DNA of 64,000 nucleotides from Cyclobacteriaceae bacterium (GTDB lineage Bacteria; Bacteroidota; Bacteroidia; Cytophagales; Cyclobacteriaceae): the NCBI GenBank assembly GCA_016787645.1, contig JAEUUF010000013.1:788372-852371 (forward strand). Direction: 5' to 3'. Shown here one piece after another: positions 14,913 through 64,000 of the stretch (its first letter is position 1; each line of letters starts with the position of its first letter). The notes beneath the pieces are model-generated. The model worked only from the letters and a program-made list of their open reading frames with translations. It searched no databases and was not told the origin of the DNA. The translations under genes were made by a program, and so were the position numbers.

Positions 14913-14936
14913 CCCAAAGTGGCGGAACTGGTAGAC
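14913..14936 (+). pseudogene. tRNA-Leu 5' half, truncated duplicate
   Basis: Bases 14914-14936 repeat exactly the first part of the intact tRNA-Leu (15002-15024): acceptor 5' strand, D-stem 5' strand and D-loop including the GG pair, ending at GGTAGAC. No matching anticodon, T-arm or 3' acceptor strand follows before the intact copy, so this is a fragment and not a tRNA. Confidence 0.85.
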
Positions 14937-15000
14937 CCTCCTCCGCTACGCTTCGGCGGGCAGGCGCGCAACACGCCTTCGAAAAATAAGTTGCCCACTA
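14937..15000. repeat. GC-rich insert between the tRNA-Leu fragment and the intact tRNA
   Basis: About 64 bp fill the space. The left part (cctcctccgctacgcttc, then ggcgggcagg) has CCGC...GCGG-type inverted symmetry and resembles dispersed palindromic repeats. The right part holds short stems GGCG/CGCC (14963-14977) and GCAAC/GTTGC (14968-14994). It contains no credible ORF. Confidence 0.6.
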
Positions 15001-15082
15001 GCCAAAGTGGCGGAACTGGTAGACGCGCACGACTCAAAATCGTGTACCTTCGGGTGTGCGGGTTCGATTCCCGCCTTTGGTA
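15001..15082 (+). tRNA. tRNA-Leu (anticodon CAA)
   Basis: A complete class II tRNA of 82 nt. The acceptor stem GCCAAAG pairs with CTTTGGT (one G-U). The anticodon stem CACGA/TCGTG encloses the loop CTCAAAA with CAA at 15035-15037. The long variable arm ACC-TTCG-GGT is typical of Leu, and the T-arm is GCGGG TTCGATT CCCGC. The discriminator is A and CCA is not encoded. It decodes UUG. A terminator follows 3 bases later. Confidence 0.95.
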
Positions 15083-15085
15083 CGA

Positions 15086-63769: not shown

Positions 63770-63797
63770 TTTGAATTCGTCTGAAATGATATCTTTG
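63770..63797 (+). promoter_or_regulatory. tRNA-type promoter before the terminal tRNA fragments
   Basis: TTTG at 63770-63773 and an exact TATCTTTG (63790-63797) are separated by 16 bases. The following GCAGCCC matches the layout of the tRNA-Leu promoter at 14.9 kb (ATCTTTGCGGTCC). The first tRNA 5' half begins 12 bases downstream. Confidence 0.7.
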
Positions 63798-63809
63798 CAG
63801 CCCATACTC

Positions 63810-63897
63810 GGGGTCATAGCTCAGCTGGTCCCGTCCCGAAACGGGACGAGGATCCTCGTGCCGCCGGCGCGGGACTAGAGCGAGTCTCCGATCGAAG
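63810..63897 (+). pseudogene. tRNA 5' half plus palindromic insert, unit 1
   Basis: Bases 63810-63829 (ggggtcatagctcagctggt) are the first 20 nt of a tRNA, Ala-like in the acceptor and D-arm but with isotype not decidable. Then comes a GC-rich insert: a perfect CGTCCCG-AAA-CGGGACG hairpin, a 12-bp palindrome CGAGGATCCTCG, then ccgccggcgcgg and tagagcgagtctccgatcg. GAGC at 63878-63881 could pair with the D-stem GCTC, but no anticodon or T-arm follows. The 103-bp unit repeats at 63913. Confidence 0.85.
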
Positions 63898-63912
63898 GGG
63901 TAGTTAAAATTT

Positions 63913-64000
63913 GGGGTCATAGCTCAGCTGGTCCCGTCCCGAAACGGGACGAGGATCCTCGCGCCGCCGGCGCGGGACTAGAGCGAGTCTCCGATCGAAG
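63913..64000 (+). pseudogene. tRNA 5' half plus palindromic insert, unit 2 (runs to the window edge)
   Basis: This unit is identical to 63810-63897 over 88 bp except for one base (T at 63859, C at 63962). A 15-base AT-rich linker, gggtagttaaaattt, separates the units. The window ends inside it, so whether an intact tRNA follows is not visible. Confidence 0.85.

Follow-up and report, generated by a model that had tools for sequence, protein, structure and literature searches.

Hairpin-interrupted partial tRNA copies at tRNA genes of Bacteroidota: a tandem tRNA-Ala array and a candidate homing-type GIY-YIG element

The published mechanism closest to the element proposed below is that of SegB, a free-standing GIY-YIG homing endonuclease encoded beside tRNA genes in T-even phages (PMC13096335). 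SegB has been implicated in cutting tRNA-containing sequence, and it drives the tandem amplification, through recombination, of segments comprising tRNA and nuclease genes (PMC13096335). The loci studied here share with this case the GIY-YIG gene beside tRNA genes and the tandem units. They differ in their location on Bacteroidota chromosomes, the many isotype-specific clades, the partial tRNA copies on two sides, the hairpins replacing tRNA arms, and the size of the protein, which has ∼80 residues and little past the catalytic domain.

Tyrosine-integrase elements integrate at tRNA genes and leave a working tRNA. Here, too, a tRNA gene is the target and a working tRNA remains, but there is no integrase and there are no identical att sites, the copies are altered by hairpins, and the only gene is that of the nuclease. 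Group I introns with GIY-YIG genes occur in bacterial tRNA genes, so that in both cases a GIY-YIG gene is tied to a break in a tRNA gene; in our loci, however, the intact tRNA is unbroken, and no Rfam intron was matched in ten loci at E 0.5. The rtT repeats of E. coli tyrT are tandem, lie downstream, and contain the 3' end of the neighboring tRNA gene. The repeats described here also hold a piece of the adjacent tRNA gene, but this is mainly the 5' part, and they lie upstream, bear hairpins, and are linked to a nuclease. REP/BIME and Rickettsia palindromic elements are short palindromic inserts found, among other places, in structured RNA genes; by contrast, the otherwise similar inserts considered here are few per genome, concentrated at tRNAs, and replace arms precisely. 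Finally, type III toxin-antitoxin systems also pair a nuclease gene with short structured RNA units repeated in tandem, whereas here the units are tRNA-derived and the intact tRNA lies between them and the nuclease gene. Among open-licence PubMed Central papers, preprints excluded, we did not find this arrangement described.

The window, that is, the whole stretch of 64,000 nucleotides analyzed here, stops at position 64000 because contig C15 (852371 bases) ends within a 103-bp tandem array. The sequence-only reading had reported two 88-nt copies spaced by 103 with one mismatch, and we confirmed them at 63810-63897 and 63913-64000 (99% identity, period 103). Unit 1 (63810..63912, plus strand, 103 bp) is comprised of a displaced copy of the tRNA-Ala 5' end with an insert in the D-loop and a 30-nt tail; unit 2 (63913..64000, plus strand) is cut after 88 nt by the end of C15. 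In unit 1, sequence comparison shows that the first 19 nt (63810..63828, plus strand) are identical to the 5' end of tRNA-Ala(GGC) on contig C4. They are followed by a palindromic insert of 46 nt (63829..63874, plus strand), by 8 nt of further tRNA-Ala sequence (CTAGAGCG; 63875..63882, plus strand), and by the tail, which has no tRNA match. The insert of unit 2 (63932..63977, plus strand) is also 46 nt long, and the two units represent the T and the C variant, respectively. The copies had been thought to start with the first 20 nt of a tRNA, which was correct as to the tRNA 5' end, although the identity extends over 19 nt. Similarly, the tRNA is interrupted in the D-loop, as had been proposed, but it does not end there: since the tRNA sequence resumes as CTAGAGCG, comparison with the intact tRNA places the insert in the D-loop, precisely at the junction of GG and CTAGAGCG. 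A promoter-like stretch read by eye, TTTG (63770) and TATCTTTG (63790-63797), occupies 63770..63797 on the plus strand; we take it to resemble the Bacteroidota-type promoter motif. It stands ahead of the first unit only, and none is seen within a unit.

The array continues on the minus strand of C4, where the final 19 nt of a unit are followed by one complete unit and then by an intact, uninterrupted tRNA-Ala(GGC). This is the downstream tRNA with the same 5' end that had been anticipated. The array hence contains at least two units, or at least three if the C4 unit is a separate one, these numbers being lower bounds because the array is broken by the contig end. Past the intact tRNA come a terminator, then a partial copy of this tRNA's 3' part whose T arm holds a different palindromic insert, and then a second terminator. 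No GIY-YIG gene was found at the window locus (L199).

The insert has the form TCCCG[TCCCGAAACGGGA][CGAGGATCCTCG][YGCCGCCGGCG]CGGGA. It is strongly palindromic, as had been noted, and its two variants fold better than dinucleotide shuffles (z of -3.1 and -3.8). A four-way junction with an outer stem and three hairpins was considered and rejected, as the minimum-energy fold consists of two side-by-side hairpins. No insert was matched in Rfam in ten loci at E up to 0.5, where the matches were to tRNA plus five below threshold; we therefore rejected a known structured RNA as the identity of the insert.

The sequence-only reading had left room for an ordinary REP element, moved by a RAYT into the tRNA D-loop. 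The inserts are palindromic, and the source genome has four matches to Y1_Tnp (PF01797), the Pfam family that includes RAYTs; any link of these matches to the window locus would be conjectural, and the companion gene of such loci is a small GIY-YIG nuclease. The insert core CGAGGATCCTCG occurs at three sites in the genome, all of them within the array, so that the REP/RAYT explanation is not supported. Moreover, the related palindrome TCCCGAN{2,8}TCGGGA occurs at 4–16 sites per genome in eight genomes, including seven in the source genome (G000). On these counts we rejected a generic REP. Nor is the D-loop a general target, as had been suggested, since related loci have the hairpin in the D, anticodon, or T arm. 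Given these counts and the use of all three arms, we regard transposition of REP elements by a RAYT as hardly credible.

A DNA search of 196 genomes of the family yielded three that match. The array was found in the source genome only, the matches in the other two being of just 19 and 24 nt. We also scanned 84,980 species genomes, a collection that may omit the source genome and its close relatives, for TCCCGA...TCGGGA palindromes preceded by a tRNA D-arm. Of the 15 loci found, 11 were from Bacteroidota; a tRNA-Ala(GGC) was called in ten of these, and the remaining one (L055) had masked tRNA-Ala(GGC) fragments. Two loci (L059 and L062) had no tRNA and looked like chance matches, and L053 was ambiguous. 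One further locus (L057), outside Bacteroidota, came from Chitinispirillaceae and involved tRNA-Asn: a full-length tRNA-Asn copy with palindromes in the D and T arms follows straight after the intact gene, and a simple motif scan found no GIY-YIG there.

The common layout is an intact tRNA flanked by partial copies scarred by hairpins, usually with a GIY-YIG gene of ∼80 residues just downstream of the tRNA. At several of the scan loci and of the tRNA-Ala loci from the family and genus, this ORF lies between the intact tRNA and a displaced 3' copy. A search with the GIY-YIG protein in 63 genomes of the genus found relatives in 48. Among 30 genus loci fetched by protein alone, 28 had a called tRNA, and partial copies were present in 26 of these 28 (the exceptions are L085 and L087). 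By anticodon, these tRNAs are of ten kinds, Ala, Gly, Leu-UAA, Leu-CAA, His, Asp, Val, Met, Thr, and Asn. A Val-clade protein had matches in 53 of 395 genomes of the class, and in 26 of 30 fetched loci a same-strand tRNA lay within 700 bp. The nearest tRNA was Val in 17 of them and also in L158, where a displaced copy had received the call Glu; Arg, Pro, and Ala were nearest in the rest. Pooling the loci retrieved by protein similarity alone, we found a tRNA within 700 bp in 52 of 60 and displaced copies in 47 of these 52, with the qualification that in two of the 52 (L086 and L158) what the program treated as the tRNA is a hairpin copy. At L078, L080, and L086, the GIY-YIG frame enters a tRNA remnant and its stop codon lies within the hairpin.

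All three proteins searched against PF01541 (GIY-YIG) scored above the cut-off. They are comprised of the GIY-YIG catalytic domain with little else and retain the conserved residues. The dN/dS ratio was 0.06–0.13 in four of ten pairs, those with measurable dS, which indicates that the nuclease, where this can be measured, evolves under purifying selection. GIY-YIG enzymes are known as DNA nucleases, SLX1 being a structure-specific one, and by sequence the closest solved structures are those of UPF0213 proteins and of SLX1. In a tree built from 29 nucleases (L050 was left out as truncated; L064, L073, L076, and L084 are absent), the tRNA isotype is clustered, with 11 changes against a mean of 18.5 after shuffling and none of 200 shuffles as low. 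Val, Gly, and His require one change each and Ala three, while the two Asn nucleases do not group. On this tree, nuclease clades track the tRNA isotype, Asn excepted.

Based on these comparisons, we think it somewhat probable that these are homing-type elements that insert at tRNA genes, keep one tRNA intact, and leave displaced pieces sealed by hairpins, the nuclease gene being missing at the window locus. The array would then be the upstream scar of a tRNA-gene-invading element of Bacteroidota, comprised of a small GIY-YIG endonuclease gene and pieces of the target tRNA gene. The nuclease would break a tRNA gene of the isotype matching it, in an arm characteristic of its clade, and repair against an element-bearing copy would insert the element while one complete tRNA stays. 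The displaced 5' piece would remain upstream under the old promoter, and the 3' piece would follow the nuclease gene. A stable hairpin, commonly TCCCG...CGGGA, interrupts or replaces an arm in the displaced pieces and would seal them; with the arm interrupted or replaced, we propose, the pieces are neither tRNA nor target. Repeated rounds or unequal exchange could produce tandem arrays. The window locus has no nuclease gene now, presumably through loss; what remains there is the array on the 5' side, the intact tRNA-Ala, and a single 3' scar.

Presence and absence of the element at fixed places are in favor of this proposal. L045 has a tRNA-Ala without the element, while L041 and L076 share its downstream gene and carry the element; in them the tRNA is followed by ∼325 extra bases, which hold a terminator and the nuclease gene, and preceded by one or two units. 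Upstream, the flanks of L045 and of L041/L076 lose colinearity before they reach the tRNA, so that only the downstream side of the empty site is clean. At one chromosomal place, L036 has no copy, L038 has a remnant, and L030 and L032 have copies of different kinds; the L030 unit is 96% identical over 51 nt to units elsewhere (L041, L068, and L076). The arms of the intact tRNA have the same sequence in filled and unfilled genomes.

Of the properties expected from homing, the loci thus provide a homing-type endonuclease gene beside its presumed target in the 52 pooled loci, although not at the window locus; alternative alleles at one place; and target specificity by clade, with the exception of Asn. 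As to the immunity of the element-bearing allele, the displaced copies are altered, yet the intact tRNA keeps its native arms. A nuclease cutting such an arm should therefore cut its own host, and no protection is visible. The numbers of upstream and downstream scars often differ (four upstream and two downstream in L090; two upstream and no 3' scar in L068), unlike the prediction of simple nested insertion. Other points against homing are the gene order at the Gly loci, where the nuclease gene lies ahead of the intact tRNA, the Asn nucleases that form no clade, the three changes in Ala, the same hairpins away from tRNA genes, the lack of a nuclease gene at the window locus itself, and the empty site of L045 that is clean on one side.

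The displaced copies are rich in hairpins, which also favors the homing-type reading. A hairpin of at least six pairs that is absent from the tRNA was present in 67 of 77 copies against 9.6 expected from mononucleotide shuffles, ∼15 of the 67 being neighboring terminators or AT-rich as judged by eye; for at least seven pairs, there were 59 copies against 2.4 expected. The C(C)CG...CGG(G) type accounts for 52 of the hairpins. Their stems vary while remaining paired (TCCCGAC/GTCGGGA, TCCCGCC/GGCGGGA, TTCCGAT/ATCGGAA, and TCCCGGC/GCCGGGA) and their loops are of differing lengths; this speaks for the formation of a hairpin as such and against a fixed sequence. Among the 36 hairpins scored in tRNA-Val copies, 23, from 13 loci, exactly replace the anticodon arm, as the tRNA flanks stop at position 28 and resume at 46; this scoring covers C-rich hairpins with a recognizable tRNA flank, and the positions in other copies were assigned by eye. 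The anticodon arm is also the site in all three Gly, three Arg, and several Ala copies, while other Ala copies have hairpins in the D and T arms and His copies in the T arm. An anticodon split as the general breakpoint, considered on the basis of L049 and the 3' scar of the source genome, was dropped as breakpoints differ among clades. A sister of the window insert, TGCCG[TGCCGAAACGGCA][CGAGCATGCTCG][...]CGGCA, interrupts the T arm of copies of tRNA-His, both in the source genome and in G231, and is also found in a downstream array of tRNA-Gly in G215.

Genome-wide, TCCCGAN{2,8}TCGGGA has 75 sites in the eight genomes, compared to seven for the reversed control. Forty of these lie within ∼450 bp of a tRNA and 35 away from it, where chance nearness is estimated at ∼1% (assuming ∼40 tRNAs per 4 Mb). 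The proportion near tRNAs varies, from 8/10 in G222, 7/9 in G198, 6/10 in G217, and 13/16 in G215 to 5/13 in G208, 1/6 in G247, 0/4 in G205, and 0/7 in the source genome. Among the sites off tRNA, RNase P RNA accounts for two and a SAM riboswitch for one, and another adjoins 5S rRNA in G208; 20 further palindrome loci had no match in Rfam. The RNase P RNA sites belong to two genomes (L106 and L118) and have the palindrome TCCCGATAGCTATCGGGA. At the 5S site (L129; G208 C1:1694020-1695620, minus strand), a partial 5' copy of 5S lies between 23S and the intact 5S and has the hairpin TCCCGATAGCGATCGGGA where CTATAG stood, the same layout outside tRNA genes. A second G208 site (L131) has the same flanks as the L129 copy; of these two, the Rfam run covered L129.

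Such sites could be expected if the copies arose by tandem duplication and decay, with slippage or unequal exchange copying a part of the tRNA, the redundant copy tolerating a palindrome, and the nuclease a bystander that favors tRNA surroundings. The presence of TCCCG...CGGGA hairpins in RNase P RNA and in the 5S copy agrees with this, as do near-identical units in which the last part of the native leader is included (L101, L107, L114, and L138) and the lack of a nuclease gene beside the window array. On the other hand, at least two thirds of displaced copies have a hairpin, the tRNA-Val hairpins have the same two junctions across genomes of many families, more than half of the palindrome sites are close to a tRNA, and the nuclease clades match the tRNA isotype. 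We consider duplication and decay a possible but rather unlikely origin.

Another explanation would place the action at the RNA level. The nuclease would cut its cognate tRNA, the transcribed hairpin-armed copies would serve as uncleavable decoys or inhibitors, like type III antitoxin repeats, and addiction would keep the module. The nuclease is small and isotype-matched, the copies retain tRNA parts while the anticodon arm is swapped for a stable hairpin with varied but paired stems, arrays of up to six units are probably transcribed along with the tRNA, and at several Val loci the copy comes right after the ORF, whose stop codon is inside the hairpin. However, the nearest solved relatives are the UPF0213 proteins and the DNA nuclease SLX1, arrays remain without a nuclease gene (in the window array and at L138), and the 5' units would be poor tRNA mimics, since the 3' strand of the acceptor stem is missing from most of them and a proper T arm is often missing as well. 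Decoys of this kind seem improbable to us. We give as little credence to a wider form, tRNA-parasitic addiction, in which a minimal isotype-specific GIY-YIG enzyme would attack either the tRNA or its gene and the co-transcribed hairpin-armed arrays would act as decoys or guides.

The hairpins might also have evolved solely as insulation against misfolding of the cut-down copies with the intact tRNA in a shared precursor. In an energy model without a multiloop length cost, restoring the native arm in place of the real hairpin worsened the predicted native acceptor stem in 7 of 18 precursors, improved it in one, and left it unchanged in ten. In the same model, the mean pairing probability of this stem was 0.93 for the tRNA alone, 0.21 with the real leader, 0.06 with the reverted one, and 0.39 with shuffled leaders. 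As pairing in this model is lower with real than with shuffled leaders, the real leaders would not insulate. Given the missing length cost, this result is not fatal to the explanation, which we nevertheless consider very improbable.

If the homing-type reading is correct, tRNA genes of Bacteroidota, a major bacterial phylum, would house a large class of minimal mobile elements that has been overlooked and whose enzyme clades are matched to isotypes. This would account for broken tRNA copies and for assembly-breaking tandem repeats at tRNA genes, and would provide dozens of natural nuclease-target pairs for studying how an 80-residue enzyme recognizes one tRNA gene. It would also raise the question why displaced tRNA arms become hairpins instead of vanishing.

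Displaced copies are also present at tRNA loci that were not selected for the element, a further point in favor of the homing-type reading. Same-strand copies were found at 6 of 30 loci in the source genome and at 7 of 30 in G217 (30 of the 39 and 36 tRNA matches, respectively, were sampled), and opposite-strand copies at none of the 60. For tRNA-Ala loci of the family and the genus, displaced partial copies were found in 9 of 30, the source locus included. One of the six loci of the source genome lies in the window (L203), where a displaced 5' copy of tRNA-Leu(CAA), positions 2–24 (14914..14936, plus strand), stands 87 nt ahead of the intact gene (15001..15083, plus strand). The copy contains a GC-rich, imperfectly palindromic insert, read by eye (14937..14964, plus strand), of a sequence class different from that of the array insert. 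Also in the source genome, tRNA-His and tRNA-Met (L143 and L089 on C26; L142 on C22) each have a GIY-YIG gene and a hairpin-scarred 3' copy, and the tRNA-His locus carries a long insert like that of the window array. In G247, L138 has six 78-bp units upstream of tRNA-Thr as well as a 3' scar, and a short apparent remnant is present at the place expected for the nuclease gene.
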